The notes beneath the pieces were generated by a model that saw nothing but the letters and a program-made list of their open reading frames with translations, was not told where the DNA came from and searched no databases. Of a stretch of DNA of 64,000 bases, positions 4,661 to 15,982 are shown in pieces. The position numbers were made by a program, and so were the translations under genes. Each line of letters opens with the position of its first letter. Position 1 is the first letter of the stretch. The DNA lies in the NCBI RefSeq assembly GCF_000473205.1, contig NZ_KI421507.1:113074-177073 (forward strand), written 5' to 3'. Source of the stretch: Pseudophaeobacter arcticus DSM 23566 (GTDB taxonomy: Bacteria > Pseudomonadota > Alphaproteobacteria > Rhodobacterales > Rhodobacteraceae).

Positions 4661-5920
4661 CTACCGGGACGCCCTTTCTTGCGTCTCTTTGAAATATTTG
4701 ATTGGCCACTCAGTTGGTGTGAAAATCTCATGGAAGTCACTGTCAACATTGCTTGCGATACGTGCAAGCAAACCAATTAGGCGATGCGCGTTTTCGCGGG
4801 TCTCACGTAATAGGGTTCCCTCTACCGCAACATCATCGCCGCTGCGTTCGACGTATCTACTGTCGATGACACCCGCATTGTGTTCAAAGACGTGCCTGCG
4901 CTCCATCATCAACCTGATAAAGCGAGTATCTTTATCCGCTATTCCTTTAAACGGGTTCAGGTCGAAAAAGTCTTTCAAACGCTTGAATGTTTCCGACTCA
5001 ATGTCATGAAAGACTAATCTAGAAAGCGCTTCTTTCCGCGCGGCCTTCATCGGAGTCCGGCGCATAAGTTGTTTGGCAAAGTCACGGCAAGCTGCATCGA
5101 ATGCAGAAACGCTTTGGCCTACGGCTGCCTCTGATTGCGCTTGTCCCCTATTTAGAGATTGCCTGATTTCCTCAAGCCGACCGGAAAGCATCTGTATGTT
5201 ATTCCGCCACCCGCAAGCGGCGCAGTAGCCATAGAGTCCCCTGATATCGTTGAACTCGCCGCAGTGATCACACTTGTATCGCGTCTGTTGGGTCTGTGAC
5301 GCGTAGTAGAAATCGGGCTTGGGTTCATCTGCGGCCTGTTTGACGATGCTTTCCATGTCGATTTCTACTTGTCGCTCTGTCCCCTTTTCATCGGGGGCAG
5401 CTAATTCTTCCTCCAAAGTCTCCGCAAGGTGAGCTAAGAACCGTCGCTGTGCTGGTGTGAGAAATTGAAATGCTGCCGTTCTCAGGCCGCAATAAGGACA
5501 AGTTTGCGGATAAATCGCAGCATGGTTTCCATTGCGAAAGTACCCATTGCACTGCGGACACTGGTGGCCCCAGCATCCAAGCGAGTCGGACCCTATGATT
5601 GCTGGAACACATCCCTCTGGTGGTGGCGGGTCAAACGATTGCCCAATTCCACCCAATTTGAAATCAGACACTGGAATTCCATGTGGAAGTAAGATGTAGA
5701 CGCCAACGGCAGTCATCGGCCCCGGACTACGCCCGACAATTCCAAACGCCGCGCCCTTTCGCCCTTCGGCATCGCATGCGATATTTATCGTGGTATTGGC
5801 ACCGCAGTGGGCAACCTCTTTGAAATCTTGGTCGTAATACGCCATTGCCTGCATCGGTCCACTTACTGAATCTGGTATTGATCTTTCGAGATTGTAGCTT
5901 GCCCGCAACGCATGGACCAT
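4661..5920 (-). CDS. Zinc-ribbon protein with HEPN-like C-terminus
   Basis: 419 aa. Two CxxC-type zinc ribbons are visible: Cys121/124 with Cys141/144, and Cys217/220 with Cys233/236. The C-terminal part, about residues 250-415, is all-helical and carries R342-H-V-F-E-H347 followed by N-A-G-V-I-D. That matches the Rx4H signature of HEPN domains, which are RNases or RNA-binding modules common in toxins and abortive-infection systems. Family knowledge makes an RNA-targeting role plausible. Placement as island cargo fits a defence or addiction function, but no antitoxin or partner is recognised. Function remains inferred. Confidence 0.6.
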   Translation of the reverse strand: MVHALRASYNLERSIPDSVSGPMQAMAYYDQDFKEVAHCGANTTINIACDAEGRKGAAFGIVGRSPGPMTAVGVYILLPHGIPVSDFKLGGIGQSFDPPPPEGCVPAIIGSDSLGCWGHQCPQCNGYFRNGNHAAIYPQTCPYCGLRTAAFQFLTPAQRRFLAHLAETLEEELAAPDEKGTERQVEIDMESIVKQAADEPKPDFYYASQTQQTRYKCDHCGEFNDIRGLYGYCAACGWRNNIQMLSGRLEEIRQSLNRGQAQSEAAVGQSVSAFDAACRDFAKQLMRRTPMKAARKEALSRLVFHDIESETFKRLKDFFDLNPFKGIADKDTRFIRLMMERRHVFEHNAGVIDSRYVERSGDDVAVEGTLLRETRENAHRLIGLLARIASNVDSDFHEIFTPTEWPIKYFKETQERASR

Positions 5921-6219
5921 CGCTGACGTGGTGAAAACAACGAAAGGCTTTCACCCAATCATGGCATCAAGGAAATGTGAAACAAGCAAAGCCATGCACC
6001 TGCAGTTAGAATACAGGTCGATTGGCTGAGCCGCAGCCTTCGAAGTGCAAGCTGGGTGTCCGTTAGAGGGATGTGCCGACCTCTTAACCCTTTAGGCTGG
6101 GTTTTCTCTATTTTTACGAATTCAGCACAAAGATGCGTTGCTGTCTCGCCAAATGTCTCCTATTGCGGGCCGCACCGCAGCATGTCGATCAGTGGGTGAA
6201 AGGCCGCTCTGGGCCGCGA
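5921..6219. other. Non-coding gap
   Basis: About 300 bp upstream of the zinc-ribbon gene and downstream of the small gene at 6220-6579. A weak hairpin, AACCC (6086-6090) with GGGTT (6099-6103) followed by a pyrimidine run, is oriented for rightward transcripts, but no rightward gene precedes it. Nothing else seen. Confidence 0.35.
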
Positions 6220-6579
6220 CTACTTGGTGCCCTTGTCGGGCCTCTGCCCGCCATACGCGTCCAGCACCATCTTGAAGTAGGTCGTCGTTTTGTCGGAGTG
6301 CGCGCCAAGACCGGGCCAGGCGAACGGAAAGGTTCCATCGGTCACCGACCAGTCAATTTCTAACCACAGCATTTTTGCAATAGCCTCAGCCTCAGGCGAC
6401 TCCTTGTCTTCAGGCCAGAGGTCCATGTCCAACGTTATCCACGCGTCGCCGTCATCATCGACCTTGATGTCAGCGCTCAAAGCAGCCAGCCTTTCTCCCA
6501 CGTTGCTTGCGTCATCCAGTAATGCTGCTCGCAACAACAACTCGGCCTTCCTAGCGTCCATGTCCATTGTTAGTGCCAT
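6220..6579 (-). CDS. Small acidic hypothetical protein
   Basis: 119 aa, rich in Asp and Glu and without Cys. The central part, D-I-K-V-D-D-D-G-D-A-W-I-T-L-D-M-D-L-W, suggests a beta hairpin in a compact single-domain protein. No family recognised. It is the last cargo gene before the IS110-family insertion, whose right boundary lies about 115 bp upstream of its start. Confidence 0.5.
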   Translation of the reverse strand: MALTMDMDARKAELLLRAALLDDASNVGERLAALSADIKVDDDGDAWITLDMDLWPEDKESPEAEAIAKMLWLEIDWSVTDGTFPFAWPGLGAHSDKTTTYFKMVLDAYGGQRPDKGTK

Positions 6580-6694
6580 GTCTGTCCTCTCCCTTTGGAT
6601 GAGAGATATGCATTACTTAGCTCGATTAAAGGGCGTATTGTTCCGAGGTACGCTTCGGCGAAGCCGCACTGCGGCGACAGTTTCCCCAACGAGT

Positions 6695-6950
6695 GGCATC
6701 TGTGGGTGGCTCCTGCATTGCAAGCGTTTTCTGTCGGTATTTGCGGTCATTTTCGTCAGTACTGTCGTCTGTCCGGCCTGTTTATGTTTTGGCATTGCCT
6801 CCACTGGCCCTAATGAATTCCGCGAGCGAGGTTCCAATCGGCTTATCGACCTCAGAGGGCCGCAGCCATTCCCGGAGTGTCCTTGCTCTTGGTTGACTTA
6901 AGTCCGCATCATTACTTCAACGTCTTGCATCTGGTAGGCAGTCGGCGCGG
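6695..6950 (-). ncRNA. Probable bridge/seek guide RNA region, copy 1
   Basis: 256 nt of non-coding sequence between the transposase stop and the element end. In the IS1111 subgroup this 3' end is known to encode the structured RNA that pairs with donor and target DNA and directs the recombinase. Identical to 11526-11781 in copy 2. Exact RNA ends cannot be set from sequence. Confidence 0.55.
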
Positions 6951-7970
6951 TTAGAACGCGGGCTGCCTGTATTCCTGTTTCTTTGTGAGCATCGCCCAGA
7001 TGGAACGCGCTGCCTTGTTCGCCATCGCGACGGTTGCCAGCCGGAACGGTTTCTCCGCGATGATCTTCGCCGTCCACAGATCGACTTTTTCAGGTGAGCG
7101 CTTCGCCATTACGGCGCGAGACGTCATGCCCACGACCAGAAGCTTGCGAATGTAGCGGTCGCCAGCCTTTGTGATCTTGCCCAATCGCTCCTTGCCGCCG
7201 CTGGATTTGTTGAGCGGGGTCAGCCCCAGCCAAGCCGCTAGATCGCGCCCGGTGCGGAATTGTTTTGCGTCCCCGATCGTAGCGACAATGGCCGATGCTG
7301 TTATTGGCCCAATTCCTGGCATGCGCATCAATCTGCGCGCATTAGCATTTAGCAGAGCATGTTGCTCGATCATCTTGGAATAGCCAGAGATGCGTTCGTT
7401 CAGGCCGATGAATTGGTAGCACTGTATCCCGAGCATCCCGTTCGCGATCTCAGGCATGTCCGGGTGATCACCGTCAAGGTGGCGCTTCGCAAAGGCCGTT
7501 ACCGCTTCGATCCCGATAGGCAAGATATGCCCGAACTCGCGCAACAGGCTGCGGATCATATTGGCCAGCTGGGTGCGCTGCCGGACTGCCAGATCCCGCG
7601 TGCGGTGGATCGATAGAATAGCCTGTTGATCCTCGGTCTTGATCTCGACAAAGCGCATCGTCGGGCGCCTGACGGCTTCGCAAATTGCCTCCGCGTCCAC
7701 CGCATCTGTCTTTCCGCGTTTGACATAAGGCTTTACATAGTTCGCAGGCATCAACCTGACATCGTGACCAAGTTTGCGCAGTGTGCGCCCCCAATGGTGC
7801 GCTGATCCACAGGCCTCCATTCCGACCATACAAGGCGGCAGCGTCTCGAAGAACGCCAATAGCTTCGCACGCTTGATCGCCTTGTTGAAGATCACGCGAC
7901 CATTCTCGGAAATACCGTGAACTTGAAAAACATCCTTGGCCAAATCTAGGCCGACTGTCTTAACTGTCAT
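6951..7970 (-). CDS. IS110-family transposase (DEDD recombinase)
   Basis: 339 aa, the usual length. The N-terminal RuvC-like domain has the DEDD residues: D9 in V-G-L-D-L-A-K, E52 in G-M-E-A-C, D89 and D92 in K-T-D-A-V-D-A. The C-terminal Transposase_20 domain has M-P-G-I-G-P near 218 and the serine motif N-K-S-S-G-G-K near 254-260. The ribosome site AAAGGAG overlaps AGGAGCCACCCA, a copy of the terminal repeat core directly before the ATG, so the transposase might bind its own leader (inference). Confidence 0.95.
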   Translation of the reverse strand: MTVKTVGLDLAKDVFQVHGISENGRVIFNKAIKRAKLLAFFETLPPCMVGMEACGSAHHWGRTLRKLGHDVRLMPANYVKPYVKRGKTDAVDAEAICEAVRRPTMRFVEIKTEDQQAILSIHRTRDLAVRQRTQLANMIRSLLREFGHILPIGIEAVTAFAKRHLDGDHPDMPEIANGMLGIQCYQFIGLNERISGYSKMIEQHALLNANARRLMRMPGIGPITASAIVATIGDAKQFRTGRDLAAWLGLTPLNKSSGGKERLGKITKAGDRYIRKLLVVGMTSRAVMAKRSPEKVDLWTAKIIAEKPFRLATVAMANKAARSIWAMLTKKQEYRQPAF

Positions 7971-8144
7971 TGGGTGGCTCCTTTCCTAGCAGTTGATGAT
8001 AATTGCACTTTGGCACATTCGATGCCGGTGGAGCAGGAGCCACCCACCTCATCCGCTCCGGGCCGGTCGCGCCCTGCCACTATGCGCGGCGGCTTGGACT
8101 TTGCAAAGTCAGCTTCCTGCGCAGAACTGCCATTGGGGGATATG

Positions 8145-9377
8145 CTACCGCGTCTTCGAGAACATCAGCTCAGTTGCCTTGTCTACGCTTTCACGGACCG
8201 GGTCCAGGTTTAGCCTGGCATAGATTGCGGTCGATTGCTGCGAACGGTGGCCCAGCGATTTTTCGATGATATAGCCATTGGCCCCCGTCGCTGCCTGATA
8301 GCTGCCAAGGGTGCGGCGCAGGTCGTGTATGCGCAGGTTTTCAATGCCTGCCTCTGCCAAAATGCGCGTCCAGGCTTTCTTGGGGTCGGCCAGGTGGCCG
8401 CTCTTGCCGGAGCCAGCAAATACATAGGGGCTGTCTGATTTCAGCTTGCGCTCAATTAGCAATTCAACGGCTTGCTGGGGCAGGTGGACTGTCAGCGGGT
8501 CAGCGTTTTTGGTTTCCTCAATGCGCCAGGTTGCGGCTTCAAAACTGATATCTTTCCACATCATCGCCAGGGTGTTTGATTTGCGCGCCCCGGTCAGCAG
8601 GGAGATCATAAAGAAATCCCGCGCGGCCTCATTTGGTTCATTCGCCAGGGCTTCAAAAAAGCGGGGCAGCTCGTCCGGTTGCAGGAACCTGTCGCGGCTC
8701 TGTTCGCGGAATTTCTTGATCCCGGTTGCCGGGTTTACGCCCTTCCAACCCCATTCGATCCCTTTGTTGAAAATGGAACGAATGCGTTCAAGCAGGCGAT
8801 TGGCCTGATAGATGCCGTTTTCCTTGCCGGTCTTGGCATGCAGCCGTTCGACCTCGGCCCGGTCAATGCTGGAGATTTTACGGCGGAACCAGTGCGACAG
8901 ATACTTGTTCACTTCGCGCTCATCGTATTTCCACGATTTTTTGTGAACCTTGGAGTATTTGTCCATGTATTCGCCGAAGAGCGCGCCAAACGTCATCTCG
9001 TCTCGAATGGCCTTCTTGTCTTTTTGCGGGTTCGCTCCGGCGGCGATGCCGCCTTTGGCCTTGGCGGCAGCTTTGCGGGCTTGCTCTACGGTCATGTCGG
9101 GGAACTTGCCCAAGAGCAGGCGTTCCGGGCGGCCCTCAATTCGTTTGTAGAGGTAAAAGCTCTTTGATCCCGCAGCGGTTACGGCCATCATTAGCCCCGC
9201 TTCACGTTCATCATAGTAATAGTCCCGCGCGCCCTTCCTGGCGGCTGCGGCCTTTAAGAGTGCGGCTTTGGTAAAGTTCAAACGATGGCTGGCCACGCTG
9301 TTCCCCTGAAATGTCTTGGTGCTACGAAATACTATTGGTGCTACACCAGTGCTACACTGACGAGCAAATTTGAACAA
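8145..9377 (-). CDS. P4-type tyrosine integrase of the island
   Basis: 410 aa. The N-terminal DUF4102-like arm-binding part (residues about 30-120, with L-L-L-G-K-F-P-D) is followed by a core-binding region and a catalytic domain containing R265 (L-T-G-A-R-K), H351-x-x-R354, H377 (L-G-H-R) and nucleophile Y386. All catalytic residues are present, so it should be active. A GTG at residue 28 (V-A-S-H-R-L-N-F) is an alternative start nearer the usual family N-terminus. The gene reads away from attR, about 100 bp off. The first IS110-family copy lies just behind its 3' end, leaving the gene intact. Confidence 0.93.
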   Translation of the reverse strand: MFKFARQCSTGVAPIVFRSTKTFQGNSVASHRLNFTKAALLKAAAARKGARDYYYDEREAGLMMAVTAAGSKSFYLYKRIEGRPERLLLGKFPDMTVEQARKAAAKAKGGIAAGANPQKDKKAIRDEMTFGALFGEYMDKYSKVHKKSWKYDEREVNKYLSHWFRRKISSIDRAEVERLHAKTGKENGIYQANRLLERIRSIFNKGIEWGWKGVNPATGIKKFREQSRDRFLQPDELPRFFEALANEPNEAARDFFMISLLTGARKSNTLAMMWKDISFEAATWRIEETKNADPLTVHLPQQAVELLIERKLKSDSPYVFAGSGKSGHLADPKKAWTRILAEAGIENLRIHDLRRTLGSYQAATGANGYIIEKSLGHRSQQSTAIYARLNLDPVRESVDKATELMFSKTR

Positions 9378-9473
9378 TATACGGGTGTGAGTGGTTTAGT
9401 TTGTATGGGTGTAATATATTGATAAATATACAAAGAAATATGTTCAGTAAACTATAGCAATATCACGCCTGTG

Positions 9474-9522
9474 AGGCTCATAACCTGAAGGTCGTAGGTT
9501 CAAATCCTACTCCCGCAACCAA
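9474..9522 (+). other. attR, displaced 3' end of tRNA-fMet
   Basis: A 49-bp exact copy of 205-253. It lacks the 5' half of the tRNA, so it is an attachment remnant and not a gene. The original chromosomal flank, including the terminator, follows. Confidence 0.92.
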
Positions 9523-9548
9523 TATTACCAAATAATCTCAGTAGCATA

Positions 9549-9570
9549 GCGCCCAATCGGGCGCTTCTTG
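9549..9570 (+). terminator. Original tRNA-fMet terminator
   Basis: A six-bp stem, GCGCCC (9549-9554) with GGGCGC (9559-9564), with AATC loop and trailing TTCTTGCGTTT. It lies 27 nt past the tRNA 3' end in the pre-island arrangement. A near-identical copy is at 16487-16508. Confidence 0.7.
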
Positions 9571-9607
9571 CGTTTCGACTCCCTATCCCGTGGAAGCACT
9601 GTGGAAG
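9549..9607 (+). repeat. tRNA downstream flank, copy A
   Basis: 59 bp repeated with one mismatch at 16487-16545. It comprises the terminator hairpin plus a stretch ending GTGGAAGCACTGTGGAAG. Copy A is preceded by attR; copy B is preceded by only the last 10 nt of a tRNA end (CCCGCAACCA, 16451-16460). Confidence 0.85.
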
Positions 9608-9778
9608 CAAACGGAACGCGTTTGGAGCTGTGGTGAATACGCAACACTGCCGTAGGGCATAGGAGTGGCATGCTCACTCAGGGAGACGAGCGCAGGGGCT
9701 GACAAAGCGGGTCGAAGTGTCCCTGCGCGCTCCTGTAATCCGTTTGCTTTCAGTGGCGCTACTTCATACAATTTAGAG

Positions 9779-10405
9779 ATGTTCAGATTTCTTTTCAGAT
9801 CGCTTTGTAAGCCGAGCTATCGGCCTCGGGCTAAGCCACACAAGAAACCGGTTAGAGAAACGCTTGCCTATAAGGCAGGCCGCAGTATTGCCGCTTCTTC
9901 GGCGCAACCAAAAACGCCGCAGTCTCGTGCGCCCAAAAGGGTCGATGCGTTCGATGCAACGACCTCTCACTCAGTCACGCTGCCGCGCGTACTGGAAGGG
10001 CGAGCTTACGTTACGGACGGTGACACAATTACGATCCAAAAGACCCAAGTACGGCTTTACGGAATAGACGCACCGGAACTGCATCATCCCTACGGCAAGA
10101 AGGCCAAGTGGGCCATGGTGCATCTGTGTAAAGGTCATCGTATACGCGCGGAGATCACTGATGAAGACGAATATGGCCGTACAGTTGCAAAGTGCTTCCT
10201 GCCTGATGGTCGTGATCTATCCGAGGAACTAGTAAAACAGGGCCTCGCTATCGACTGGCCAAAGTTCTCAGGTGGTAATTACAGTAATCTTGAGGTCGCT
10301 GGCATCCGTAAGAAGCTTTGGCTTGCCGACGCTCGCCAAAAAGGCCGCATAGATGTTTTGGAAAAATTTGACGCGCGAAAGAATGGTGAAAGCAAAGAAA
10401 AATGA
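9779..10405 (+). CDS. Staphylococcal-nuclease-like (thermonuclease) protein
   Basis: 208 aa from ATG 9779; the frame opens further upstream but that part lacks resemblance. The SNase domain spans about residues 70-190: D80-G-D82-T-I, then V-R92-L-Y-G-I-D-A-P-E100, then E-Y-G-R134. These correspond to the calcium-binding aspartates and the catalytic Arg/Glu/Arg trio of the family, so a Ca-dependent phosphodiesterase cutting DNA or RNA is expected. The N-terminus is short, hydrophobic and basic (F-R-F-L-F-R-S-L), a possible anchor but not a clear signal peptide. The second IS110-family copy begins 14 bp after the stop; the gene is intact. Confidence 0.85.
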   Translation: MFRFLFRSLCKPSYRPRAKPHKKPVRETLAYKAGRSIAASSAQPKTPQSRAPKRVDAFDATTSHSVTLPRVLEGRAYVTDGDTITIQKTQVRLYGIDAPELHHPYGKKAKWAMVHLCKGHRIRAEITDEDEYGRTVAKCFLPDGRDLSEELVKQGLAIDWPKFSGGNYSNLEVAGIRKKLWLADARQKGRIDVLEKFDARKNGESKEK

Positions 10406-10493
10406 AAAACCGGCCCAATGCGGATGAGGTGGGTGGCTCCTGCTCCACCGGCATCGAATGTGCCAAAGTGCAATTATCATCAACTGCTAGGAA

Positions 10494-10505
10494 AGGAGCC
10501 ACCCA
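10494..10505 (+). promoter_or_regulatory. Ribosome site overlapping a copy of the IS terminal repeat
   Basis: AGGAGCCACCCA immediately precedes the transposase ATG and repeats the core of the subterminal inverted repeat (right-end copy at 11762-11773). If the transposase or its RNA binds the repeat, it could block its own translation start. Known: the repeat. Inferred: autoregulation. Confidence 0.4.
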
Positions 10506-11525
10506 ATGACAGTTAAGACAGTCGGCCTAGATTTGGCCAAGGATGTTTTTCAAGTTCACGGTATTTCCGAGAATGGTCGCGTGATCTTCAACAAGGCGAT
10601 CAAGCGTGCGAAGCTATTGGCGTTCTTCGAGACGCTGCCGCCTTGTATGGTCGGAATGGAGGCCTGTGGATCAGCGCACCATTGGGGGCGCACACTGCGC
10701 AAACTTGGTCACGATGTCAGGTTGATGCCTGCGAACTATGTAAAGCCTTATGTCAAACGCGGAAAGACAGATGCGGTGGACGCGGAGGCAATTTGCGAAG
10801 CCGTCAGGCGCCCGACGATGCGCTTTGTCGAGATCAAGACCGAGGATCAACAGGCTATTCTATCGATCCACCGCACGCGGGATCTGGCAGTCCGGCAGCG
10901 CACCCAGCTGGCCAATATGATCCGCAGCCTGTTGCGCGAGTTCGGGCATATCTTGCCTATCGGGATCGAAGCGGTAACGGCCTTTGCGAAGCGCCACCTT
11001 GACGGTGATCACCCGGACATGCCTGAGATCGCGAACGGGATGCTCGGGATACAGTGCTACCAATTCATCGGCCTGAACGAACGCATCTCTGGCTATTCCA
11101 AGATGATCGAGCAACATGCTCTGCTAAATGCTAATGCGCGCAGATTGATGCGCATGCCAGGAATTGGGCCAATAACAGCATCGGCCATTGTCGCTACGAT
11201 CGGGGACGCAAAACAATTCCGCACCGGGCGCGATCTAGCGGCTTGGCTGGGGCTGACCCCGCTCAACAAATCCAGCGGCGGCAAGGAGCGATTGGGCAAG
11301 ATCACAAAGGCTGGCGACCGCTACATTCGCAAGCTTCTGGTCGTGGGCATGACGTCTCGCGCCGTAATGGCGAAGCGCTCACCTGAAAAAGTCGATCTGT
11401 GGACGGCGAAGATCATCGCGGAGAAACCGTTCCGGCTGGCAACCGTCGCGATGGCGAACAAGGCAGCGCGTTCCATCTGGGCGATGCTCACAAAGAAACA
11501 GGAATACAGGCAGCCCGCGTTCTAA
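10506..11525 (+). CDS. IS110-family transposase, identical second copy
   Basis: 339 aa, identical to the copy at 6951-7970, with D9, E52, D89, D92 and the N-K-S-S-G-G-K serine motif intact. Identity indicates a recent transposition or ongoing homogenisation by recombination between the two inverted copies. Both copies appear functional. Confidence 0.95.
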   Translation: MTVKTVGLDLAKDVFQVHGISENGRVIFNKAIKRAKLLAFFETLPPCMVGMEACGSAHHWGRTLRKLGHDVRLMPANYVKPYVKRGKTDAVDAEAICEAVRRPTMRFVEIKTEDQQAILSIHRTRDLAVRQRTQLANMIRSLLREFGHILPIGIEAVTAFAKRHLDGDHPDMPEIANGMLGIQCYQFIGLNERISGYSKMIEQHALLNANARRLMRMPGIGPITASAIVATIGDAKQFRTGRDLAAWLGLTPLNKSSGGKERLGKITKAGDRYIRKLLVVGMTSRAVMAKRSPEKVDLWTAKIIAEKPFRLATVAMANKAARSIWAMLTKKQEYRQPAF

Positions 11526-11781
11526 CCGCGCCGACTGCCTACCAGATGCAAGACGTTGAAGTAATGATGCGGACTTAAGTCAACCAAGAGCAAGGACACT
11601 CCGGGAATGGCTGCGGCCCTCTGAGGTCGATAAGCCGATTGGAACCTCGCTCGCGGAATTCATTAGGGCCAGTGGAGGCAATGCCAAAACATAAACAGGC
11701 CGGACAGACGACAGTACTGACGAAAATGACCGCAAATACCGACAGAAAACGCTTGCAATGCAGGAGCCACCCACAGATGCC
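11526..11781 (+). ncRNA. Probable bridge/seek guide RNA region, copy 2
   Basis: Non-coding 3' end of the element. Two short internal matches fit a guide: CGGCCC at 11614-11619 matches the shared target core, and GATGCGGA at 11566-11573 matches the junction expected if the element circularises across its GC core (right end CAGAT, core GC, left end GGATGAG). Guide assignment is inference; RNA borders are unknown. Confidence 0.55.
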
Positions 11782-11860
11782 TTTCACACGGACCAGGGTC
11801 GCTGCAACGCAGCTTCTCCAAAGCGGACCTCCTCTGTCTGGGGAGGCGCTTCCATAGGGG

Positions 11861-12094
11861 GTGATCTATGCCCTGCTACGCGAACGCGCTCCGGTTGAAG
11901 CCGTGAGCGACATCAACCAGAGCAAGCTAGGGCGTTTCCTCGCAGGAACCCGGCTGCGTGTCTGCGCGCCCGAGGAGGTTTTGCCAAACCTGCCCCGGTC
12001 TGCAAGAATCCTTGATATGAACCCGAATTACTGCGAGGAAATCCGGAATATGTCGAACGACGCATTTACATATGTTGAGGTGGGAAATGACTGA
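11861..12094 (+). pseudogene. 3' fragment of a sugar C-methyltransferase
   Basis: 77 codons from a GTG. The tail, V-C-A-P-E-E-V-L-P then I-L-D-M-N-P-N-Y-C-E-E-I-R, is typical of the C-terminal domain of SAM-dependent methyltransferases acting on nucleotide sugars (Methyltransf_14-type end). The SAM-binding and zinc-binding domains, about 300 residues, are missing; sequence upstream to the IS110-family end at 11781 encodes nothing related. The parent gene was therefore truncated before or during the IS insertion. Its stop overlaps the next gene by 8 nt, so the two were once one operon. Confidence 0.65.
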
Positions 12095-12857
12095 ATTTAA
12101 GCAAGAGATCGCAGGCCGCATCGCGGAAATGATGAACAACAAGCCGTTGAACGACTTGGCTATGACATTTCTGCAAGCCACGACCCAGCCAAAGTATTCG
12201 TATAACTACCACTGGCAAGATCGCCCGATCATTCAATACCCGCAAGATATCGTAGCGATGCAAGAACTCATCTGGAGCATCAAGCCCGATCTGATCATCG
12301 AGACGGGTATTGCGCATGGTGGGTCGCTGGTCTTCAGTGCGTCCATGCTTGCGTTACTGGACATGTGCGATGCCATTGAGGCGGGCACTGTCATTGACCC
12401 ATCGAACTCGTCCCGCAAAGTTCTGGGTATCGACATCGACATCCGCGCGCACAACCTTACCGCTATTCAGAAGCATCCAATGGCCTCTCGCATTGAGATG
12501 ATCGAGGGGTCCAGCATTGACCCAGACATCTTCGCCAAGGTTAATAAGGCTGCTGAAGGATACGAGCGCGTCCTTGTCTGTCTAGATTCAAACCACACTC
12601 ATGATCATGTCCGGAGCGAACTGGAGCTTTATGCGCCGCTCACGTCGGTCGGAAGTTATTGCGTCGTCTTCGACACGCTAATCGAGGACATGCCTGCAGA
12701 CGAGTATCCCGATCGCTCCTGGGGACCGGGCAACAATCCAAAAACTGCGGTTTGGGACTATCTCAAGACCCACTCCGAGTTCGAGATTGACAAGAGCATC
12801 CCCGCGAAACTGCTGATCACGGTCGCTCATGATGGTTTTCTCAAACGGGTCCGGTAG
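12087..12857 (+). CDS. CmcI-type cephalosporin hydroxylase-like / O-methyltransferase family protein
   Basis: 256 aa from ATG 12087, which has GAGGTGGG as ribosome site; a GTG-like upstream start at 12072 is less likely. The motif R-P-I-I-Q-Y-P-Q-D followed by D-L-I-I-E-T-G-I-A-H-G-G-S, a Rossmann-type SAM site, and G-I-D-I-D-I-R are the hallmarks of the CmcI/rhamnosyl O-methyltransferase family. In surface-polysaccharide loci such proteins methylate sugars, so O-methylation of a glycan is more likely than antibiotic hydroxylation. It follows a truncated C-methyltransferase and faces a glycosyltransferase tail to tail, 1 nt apart. Confidence 0.8.
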   Translation: MTEFKQEIAGRIAEMMNNKPLNDLAMTFLQATTQPKYSYNYHWQDRPIIQYPQDIVAMQELIWSIKPDLIIETGIAHGGSLVFSASMLALLDMCDAIEAGTVIDPSNSSRKVLGIDIDIRAHNLTAIQKHPMASRIEMIEGSSIDPDIFAKVNKAAEGYERVLVCLDSNHTHDHVRSELELYAPLTSVGSYCVVFDTLIEDMPADEYPDRSWGPGNNPKTAVWDYLKTHSEFEIDKSIPAKLLITVAHDGFLKRVR

Positions 12858-12858
12858 A

Positions 12859-14118
12859 TCAAAGCTGGCGCTGAAAACCCTTGGACCGACGCTTGGCCGC
12901 CTTCCAGGCCAAGCGAGGCGTCATATCGCCTGACAGAACCGCGCCAAAATCTTGCCCCAAGATCGCATCTATCATATGGGCTGCCGTAAGAATGGTGTTT
13001 TCGCCTCCCTCGGTTGCGGACACCCTGAAACTCGATAGTTGCCCCTGCGCACGGGCGAAGCGCTCTTTCAGGCTTCGTTTGGCCTGAGGCGGGCCTTGCA
13101 GAGCGGCGTCCAGGAGGGATTGTGTGCCCTTCGCTGCGGCGTGGTCCCCCAGAATGCCACGCATTTGCTCTGCTAGCGCTGGGTTCTTTCTGGTCGATCC
13201 ACGAACATACTTATACCAGCTGAGGTAGTCGGGTTGAAATGCCTCAAGGGCATGGTTGCGCCGCAAGGTCTCCAGGGTCGAGAAAAACGCCAATGGGACT
13301 GATCCGGCATGGGGAAACACATCGCTCATCGGGTCGGTAATGTTCTCTTTTGCAAAAAGCTTGCTGCTGCTGGTCCCAGAACAATTGTTTTGTTCGGCTC
13401 CGTGGCCACCGCCGGTGCTGGCCGGGCTGTATCCGTTGATCGAGAACGGGTGGTCAACTCCGATGAAATGGCCGTCTTTCAAGATGGATCTATAGGATAG
13501 GTTGACGTCAGGAATGGCGCTGTCGAAAACCGTTCTCCCGTCCATCGAAGTCTTGAGCATGTAGGCGCGCGAAAGGCAGCCGTGATATATATCTGGAACC
13601 GGACGCAGGTTGGATACGTCTGCCGTCATGAGTTTCTGTAGGTTTTCCGCGCCGTGAAAAGCCTTCGGAGAGCCGAAGCAATTGCTGCGGTAGAATCTGA
13701 CACCGCCGGTCTTCCTTCCATACCCTTCAATGGGCCAGCCATAGGTTGCCTTGATCCAACTCAGACCATCAGGTCTGTTGGCCTCCAAAAGCTGCCGCAA
13801 GTAGGGGAACTGTTTTGGTAGCATCCCATCGTCATCGCCGAAGTAGATCAGATAATCACCTGTCGATGCTTTGAAAGCCGTTTCAAAGTTCTGCCGCATT
13901 GACAACCGCGCCCCCGTATTCACGTAGACCAGTCGGCTGTCATCAAACTCTTGCATGAGTTCCTTGGTCCCGTCGGAGCTGGCATTGTCGCTTACAATGA
14001 TCTCAATGTTGTCATCGTCGATCTCGAGAGCAGTCTGAACGGAATGCCGCAAATACTGGCCTCGTTCTCGGGTTGGAATGGCAATGCTGACTTTCAATTT
14101 GAAGAGCTCCTTTTGCAT
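12859..14118 (-). CDS. Family 2 glycosyltransferase
   Basis: 419 aa. GT-A fold at the N-terminus: V-S-I-A-I-P-T-R-E-R from residue 9, I-I-V-S-D-N-A-S-S-D-G-T near 40-52, and the metal-binding Y-F-G-D-D-D-G motif near 92-98. No membrane segment, so cytosolic. The C-terminal third (about residues 280-419) is not recognised. It lies convergent with the CmcI-like gene and probably belonged to the same surface-glycan locus, now isolated by insertion sequences. Donor and acceptor cannot be deduced. Confidence 0.85.
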   Translation of the reverse strand: MQKELFKLKVSIAIPTRERGQYLRHSVQTALEIDDDNIEIIVSDNASSDGTKELMQEFDDSRLVYVNTGARLSMRQNFETAFKASTGDYLIYFGDDDGMLPKQFPYLRQLLEANRPDGLSWIKATYGWPIEGYGRKTGGVRFYRSNCFGSPKAFHGAENLQKLMTADVSNLRPVPDIYHGCLSRAYMLKTSMDGRTVFDSAIPDVNLSYRSILKDGHFIGVDHPFSINGYSPASTGGGHGAEQNNCSGTSSSKLFAKENITDPMSDVFPHAGSVPLAFFSTLETLRRNHALEAFQPDYLSWYKYVRGSTRKNPALAEQMRGILGDHAAAKGTQSLLDAALQGPPQAKRSLKERFARAQGQLSSFRVSATEGGENTILTAAHMIDAILGQDFGAVLSGDMTPRLAWKAAKRRSKGFQRQL

Positions 14119-15404: not shown

Positions 15405-15982
15405 ATGATTGTCCGCTTCGGGAGTACTTCAGCGCAGCGTTGCGACACCGTGTGAATGTCCGGTCTGGGCCGGTCGCTTCGGTCCACTAGGTTGCCGGTA
15501 AACCATGCTTCGCTGCACCCTGGTCGGATGTCAGCGAAGCGCAGGTAGCGAGCTTTGCAAAGTCATGGTGGCACACCAGAGCGTCAGGCGCGACTGGCCC
15601 AAAGCTACCGCTCAATCGAGTTGTAAGAAACCGCAGTTAACGCCGCAAATGCGGACATTTGAATGAAGCGCCAACCAATTTAATCTCGGCACTTCGCAGG
15701 CGGCTTTGATCTGTGGCAACGTTTACAACCCGGGTTTGGAGAGCGCTTGGCGACAGCGCGGCCTGGTGCGGGACGCTGCGGGAGGTGTGTTGCGTGACCA
15801 CACGCAAACAGGGAGTCTTGAGCTGACGCCTCAGATTTAAGCGGATTCTTCGTTGTTTACCTGCTAGCCAATCGCATTGAAAGCAATGAAACACGTGGGG
15901 AAGGTGATGCCGTTCAATCCTTGGCATACTGTTGTGCTGGCCTAGCACAAATCTCTTTACACTTAAGTACTAGTCCAAAATT
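15405..15982. other. Gene-poor accessory stretch
   Basis: About 580 bp without a credible gene on either strand. Phrases such as TGTCCGGTCTGGGC (around 15457) recur as TGTCCGGTTTGGGC near 16353, suggesting decayed repeat copies. A 103-codon leftward open frame (15637-15948) has no family features. Sequence composition is mixed, typical of scrambled remnants. Confidence 0.4.

Follow-up and report, generated by a model that had tools for sequence, protein, structure and literature searches.

An IS1111-group element of Pseudophaeobacter arcticus with a predicted guide RNA suited to a dispersed repeat

Introduction

Insertion sequences of the IS1111 group such as ISEc11, ISKpn4 and ISPst6 are described in PMC11187229 as encoding a DEDD transposase of 330-350 aa, bearing subterminal repeats with extensions of 7 and 3 bp and inserting without target duplication. 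The same paper places a noncoding region downstream of the transposase gene, whose seekRNA contains a complement of the target's top strand followed by a match to its bottom strand, and reports that this guide order is opposite to that of IS110. In ISPa11, another IS1111 element treated there, the guide RNA directs insertion to the REP sequences of Pseudomonas, dispersed repeats that contain a small hairpin. For IS621, a member of the IS110 group, PMC11208160 describes a bridge RNA with an internal target-binding loop, found by covariation, in which the guides overlap at a core dinucleotide.

Here, we analyzed a 64,000-nucleotide stretch of the P. arcticus DSM 23566 genome (the window) that carries two copies of one insertion sequence (IS), whose predicted features resemble those listed above for ISEc11, ISKpn4, ISPst6, ISPa11 and the IS621 bridge RNA. 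Compared with the published accounts, the window element has other targets and guides than ISEc11, ISKpn4 and ISPst6, and its steps are predictions. Unlike in ISPa11, its repeat belongs to another family, from Rhodobacterales, insertion occurs 24 bases from the hairpin and some copies of window-type elements sit outside the repeat. Unlike in IS621, the guide order is reversed, the RNA lies at the other end and the subterminal repeats are long. Judging from sequence, we assign a probability of about 92% to the reading that this is an IS1111-group element with a downstream seekRNA, or bridge RNA, that directs insertion by the guides of a target-binding loop.

Results

Two identical copies of an IS1111-group element

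The initial annotation described two identical copies of 1,362 bp. The copies are inverted and 100% identical, and the run of shared identity is exactly 1,362 bp long, but the element, which reads GGATGAG...AGA, measures 1,356 bp. The six surplus bases (left GC, right TGCC) are flank bases that both sites coincidentally share; the three other copies in this genome are flanked by CC or GC on the left and by AGCC, AGTC or GGCC on the right. The subterminal inverted repeats are 15 bp long and perfect, set in from the left and right ends by 7 and 3 bp, respectively.

6699..8054, minus strand: IS copy 1, 1,356 bp, inverted with respect to copy 2 and of identical sequence
10422..11777, plus strand: IS copy 2, 1,356 bp, with left extension GGATGAG (7 bp) and right extension AGA (3 bp)
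10429..10443, plus strand: left subterminal inverted repeat of copy 2, 15 bp (copy 1: 8033-8047)
11760..11774, plus strand: right subterminal inverted repeat of copy 2, 15 bp (copy 1: 6702-6716)
6951..7970, minus strand: transposase gene of copy 1, 339 aa
10506..11525, plus strand: transposase gene of copy 2, 339 aa, DEDD_Tnp_IS110 and Transposase_20

Several properties place the element in the IS1111 group. By its domains (PF01548 and PF02371) and its length of 339 aa, the transposase fits the DEDD enzymes of 330-350 aa typical of that group, and its translation contains GLTPLNKSSG, an instance of the motif GL-P----S(T)G that PMC11187229 gives for the IS1111 C-terminal domain. The 15-bp repeats correspond to the perfect or near-perfect repeats, usually of 11-13 bp, of IS1111 elements, and the 7-bp left and 3-bp right extensions occur without target duplication, as judged from empty sites of sister copies. 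As in IS1111, the longer noncoding region lies 3' of the transposase gene, with about 250 nt after it versus 84 nt before it. Sequence order and covariation further place the top-strand complement of the predicted guide RNA 5' of the bottom-strand match, as in seekRNAs of IS1111. An IS110 (IS621-like) arrangement does not apply, the RNA being downstream of the transposase gene with the right guide first, while the predicted internal target-binding loop, whose two guides share a core dinucleotide, agrees with a bridge RNA. By sequence, the only relatives of solved structure that were detected are the ISCro4 (PDB 9t56, E 9e-7) and IS621 (PDB 8wt6, E 9e-6) transposases; both are distant from the window transposase, the similarity being reported for the C-terminal domain only (residues 212-280).

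The genome holds five full-length copies (L001-L005), four of them 100% and one 97% identical, plus fragments of relatives, and the window element is a recently active member of the IS1111 group. The fifth copy, L005 (C6:24331-25730), is 1,382 bp long with small insertions near element position 153-211, and its transposase match begins only at residue 43. Searching plasmids with the element returned 527 records, three of which cover at least 80% of the query.

Empty sites define the ends and the targets

Joined flanks, obtained by excising exactly 1,356 bp, were compared with empty sites of sister copies. For L004, three same-genus genomes (L119, L120 and L121) aligned gap-free over 180 columns; for L003, site L233 matched with six mismatches and no gap over 102 columns. 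Since the L003 flank is built of short repeats common in the genus, only L233, whose match spans the junction, was counted for this copy. Another locus, L239, matches the left side of the L003 flanks and crosses the junction gap-free, with a weaker right side. As the empty sites align gap-free once exactly 1,356 bp are removed, insertion took place without target duplication. L004 (C6:3257583-3258944) breaks a coding stretch that is intact in same-genus relatives and which we take to encode an M20-type peptidase.

With the ends set via L003 and L004, the window targets can thus be rebuilt from sequence as ACCGGCCCGGAGC|TGCCACTC for copy 1 and ACCGGCCCAATGC|TGCCTTTC for copy 2; the targets rebuilt earlier, from 1,362-bp copies, were three bases short. 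A GC dinucleotide had also been proposed as the crossover core. However, GC occupies -2,-1 on the left but +2,+3 on the right and is absent from some of the other copies in this genome, so that it is not the core.

8055..8067, minus strand: left target flank of copy 1, ACCGGCCCGGAGC (element strand)
6691..6698, minus strand: right target flank of copy 1, TGCCACTC (element strand)
10409..10421, plus strand: left target flank of copy 2, ACCGGCCCAATGC
11778..11785, plus strand: right target flank of copy 2, TGCCTTTC

Guides of a predicted RNA loop covary with their targets

From public genomes we extracted, for each relative, the element, its noncoding region and the flank on either side. A first set of 78 loci came from the 80 best of 99 relatives. 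Removal of 37 loci without a recognisable repeat pair and four duplicates from 115 loci with a transposase match left 74, and the shuffle test used the 69 with both flanks, L112 excluded. Base-switch and information counts refer to 56 close-family loci. In a wider sample of the order, 142 of 390 genomes had a match at E <= 1e-60. In a larger set, 161 of 185 loci gave ends and 127 were non-redundant with both flanks. Nine of these (L038, L080, L082, L098, L113, L173, L180, L208 and L211) were dropped by judgement after inspection as mis-called or not credible, yielding 118 loci with an effective number of 55, namely 53 distant and 65 close ones (transposase at least 70% identical, own copies included); at least L057 and L067, also with mis-called ends, remain among them.

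In the consensus fold of 52 sequences, stem P1 and a short P2 lead to an internal loop capped by an apical hairpin, P3, whose stem shows GC, CG and AU alternatives. The two sides of the internal loop carry the guides, the 5' side the right one and the 3' side the left one. In the minimum-energy fold of the element's own RNA the two loop sides pair together, the loop being open only in the consensus.

11588..11652, plus strand: part of the guide RNA predicted to form the target-binding loop (copy 1: 6824-6888, minus strand)
11588-11595 and 11645-11652, plus strand: P1 arms of the predicted loop (copy 2)
11603..11612, plus strand: right target guide GGGAATGGCT, predicted to pair with the top strand at +1..+9 (copy 1: 6864-6873)
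11614..11629, plus strand: apical hairpin P3, CGGCCC-TCTGA-GGTCG (copy 1: 6847-6862)
11630..11637, plus strand: left target guide ATAAGCCG, predicted to pair with the bottom strand at -6..+2 (copy 1: 6839-6846)

An Rfam search of positions 5000-13000 gave no match at gathering level; a mir-276 match at 11575-11667 (minus strand), with 19.9 bits versus a gathering score of 62, was taken as chance.

Pairing of guides with their own flanks exceeded pairing with shuffled flanks on both sides: 6.34 versus 5.39 (SD 0.09) for the right guide and 5.80 versus 5.10 (SD 0.08) for the left guide, with 0 of 20,000 shuffles reaching the observed value in either case (69 loci, shared descent ignored). Complementarily, we scored every RNA diagonal against the flanks on both strands in the 118 loci. 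The left-guide diagonal, AUAAGCCG versus -6..+2, was the top bottom-strand diagonal in all three sets, with z scores of 14.5 (all 118 loci), 12.8 (53 distant loci) and 5.2 (65 close loci). The right-guide diagonal, GAAUGGCU versus the first right-hand bases, led among top-strand diagonals in two of the three sets (z 9.0 for all and 8.8 for distant loci), its register moving by one base between subfamilies. Within the close family it came second (z 3.3), behind the P3 region versus -11..-4 (z 4.1).

Single positions followed the same trend. At +3 in the close family, a guide G faces C or T in 23 of 23 cases, and a guide U faces A in 21 of 31, C in eight and T in two; at -2, a guide C faces C in 10 of 10 cases and a guide G faces G in 35 of 46. 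Among distant relatives, L069 matches at 8 of 8 positions for both guides and L066 at 8 of 8 for the right guide, and in L073, L075 and L076 TA replaces NG in guide and target alike. The part of the target read by the guides is approximately WWWSC|NGMCNTTC. Among the five copies in this genome, scores reach only 5.6-6.0 of 8 for the right guide and at best 4.0-5.2 of 8 for the left guide, whose best register differs from the expected one in three of the five; the guide is not callable from this genome without relatives. GCGGCCC, the 5' strand of P3, had been guessed first as the left guide because it equals the CGGCCC of the initially annotated motif, and was ruled out, the covariation scans pointing to AUAAGCCG versus -6..+2.

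Both guides cover +1,+2, the positions corresponding to element bases 1-2; their overlap is not at GC. At +2, the guide base equals that of the element in 114 of 118 loci and fits the target in 112, and element and target agree in 113. At +1 the target varies; in the distant loci, guide and element bases match in 45 of 53 cases, where shuffling would predict 24.5. In the close family, +1 shows a guide C versus an element G, with agreement in just 1 of 65 loci.

Most copies in this genome interrupt a dispersed repeat

The DNA around the two window copies, initially regarded as unrelated, proved in a sequence-model search to consist of copies of one degenerate dispersed repeat. The model was built from an alignment of 23 of 27 excised junctions (L028, L040, L070 and L077 omitted) and found 17 places in this genome at E <= 1.6e-4, 13 uninterrupted and four broken by the IS. 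The broken ones (L001, L002, L003 and L005) were part of the model and match by construction, and the total is a lower bound because 150 of 4066 candidates were scored. The repeat reads approximately CGGCCC-N3-SC-NG-MC-NTTC; some 24 bases to the right of where the element inserts, it contains a small GCTGC...GCAGC hairpin. The genome contains six exact matches to CGGCCCNNNSCNGNCNTTCR, versus one for the reversed control. The repeat loci (C6, L130-L146) include at least 13 uninterrupted copies, several of them clustered at about 1818-1870 kb, at 2770-2785 kb and in the window region. Among open PMC articles, we found none joining IS1111 with Rhodobacteraceae and, judged by title, none on such repeats among the two that mention Roseobacter and intergenic palindromic repeats.

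6151..6220, minus strand: uninterrupted repeat copy (C6:119224-119293, E 9.9e-11)
15408..15482, minus strand: uninterrupted repeat copy (C6:128481-128555, E 1.7e-8)
6645..6706, minus strand: right part of the repeat broken by copy 1, running slightly into the element (C6:119718-119779)
11770..11831, plus strand: right part of the repeat broken by copy 2, running slightly into the element (C6:124843-124904)

Two identical, inverted elements within copies of one repeat could also share their motif through duplication or homologous recombination between repeats instead of independent insertion. We consider this extremely improbable: beyond the motif the flanks differ at most positions, copy 1 lies inside and copy 2 outside a predicted tRNA-bounded island, and L004 occupies a site outside the repeat, at CAAAGC|AGTCATTGG.

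The island in question is probably a 9.3-kb insertion in tRNA-Met. The 3' half of the tRNA-Met gene at 176-252 plus a few bases beyond (202-257) recurs at 9471-9526 with 54 of 56 bases identical, and a tyrosine-type phage integrase gene (8145-9377, minus strand) adjoins this recurrence; copy 2 sits just outside. Elsewhere, three loci of Candidatus Rhodobacter lobularis (L054, L055 and L056) have the same 60-base right flank and different left flanks, a pattern that is unexplained by simple insertion.

Conserved bases beyond the guides

The initial annotation centered on a motif shared by the two targets. Both window left flanks do read ACCGGCCC-N3-GC, but exact ACCGGCCC occurs at just 3 of 65 close-family junctions, two of which are the window copies, and most of it falls outside the guide-read stretch. 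Its CGGCCC portion is more widespread, being exact at -11..-6 in 33 of the 65 junctions and within one mismatch in 37, and positions -9..-6 carry 1.1-1.4 bits each in the close family. GGCCC may be carried simply as part of the repeat, or else the protein or the P3 stem may recognize it.

If the dispersed repeat were recognized by the transposase protein itself, via CGGCCC or the hairpin of the repeat, with no more than an incidental RNA match, both this frequency and this information content would be accounted for, as would the failure of guide score alone to explain the choice within the repeat: in 12 of the 30 repeat loci scored, the guides match a second, unused site 30 to 50 bases downstream at least as well. 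These 30 loci (of 31; L016 has no left flank) were chosen for a GGCC-type left flank, so the count says nothing on the usage of other sites. Such protein recognition is nonetheless very unlikely, as targets vary along with guide bases and close-family sites without GGCCC keep the guide-matched core. Of 16 sites with at least three mismatches to GGCCC, two had mis-called ends; the remaining 14 include L004, within a gene.

RNA-guided targeting might, in turn, involve the P3 stem as a third recognition segment, reading the target at about -11..-7 in addition to the two guides. The conserved GGCCC outside the coverage of both guides and the unused sites with good guide scores are consistent with this, as is the P3 region being the top diagonal in the close family (z 4.1); in L065, L066, L202 and L213 the 3' strand of P3 extends the left guide to about -10 or further (by eye). 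However, no P3 diagonal of the expected register is prominent in the distant set, compensatory changes mark P3 as a stem, and GGCCC may merely accompany the repeat. Nor did we find a better guide match compensating for absent GGCCC (T+B 10.7 versus 11.3, p 0.63; two mis-called loci included). We regard the added P3 reading as possible but unlikely. A fuller version, to which we give somewhat less credence still, would have the P3 stem (CGGCC) read GGCCC at -10..-6 and tell two near-equivalent sites of one repeat apart, with guide, hairpin and repeat family co-evolving as a harmless landing place.

Discussion

Overall, RNA-guided target choice, which the initial annotation had put forward, is strongly supported in its IS1111/seekRNA form by guide-target covariation, a conserved target-binding loop and empty sites, evidence that like the ends and the repeat context is drawn from sequence. 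The argument first given for it, one motif in unrelated DNA plus a GC core, fails as stated, because both sites belong to one repeat, the guides read little of ACCGGCCC, and it is at +1,+2 that they overlap.

In the proposed mechanism, a seekRNA or bridge RNA with an internal target-binding loop would be encoded 3' of the transposase gene. The right half of the target, +1..+9, would be paired through its top strand to the 5' side of the loop (GGGAAUGGCU), and the left half, -6..+2, through its bottom strand to the 3' side (AUAAGCCG), with +1,+2 covered by both. The element would then be inserted between -1 and +1 without target duplication. By analogy with the relatives covered in PMC11187229, the RNA is presumably made, bound by the transposase and needed, and movement would proceed via a circle. 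As the guide suits a repeat of these bacteria, many copies would land in it.

The mechanism was already published in 2024, and the element is a good example of it, not a new principle. What the analysis contributes is a natural set of IS1111 guide-target pairs, 118 loci with position-by-position support for guide reading, including a left guide that would extend two bases past the point of insertion, along with a guide that fits a dispersed repeat. Such a set may be of use in annotating or reprogramming the IS1111 group, and allows the role of bases outside the guides to be tested.
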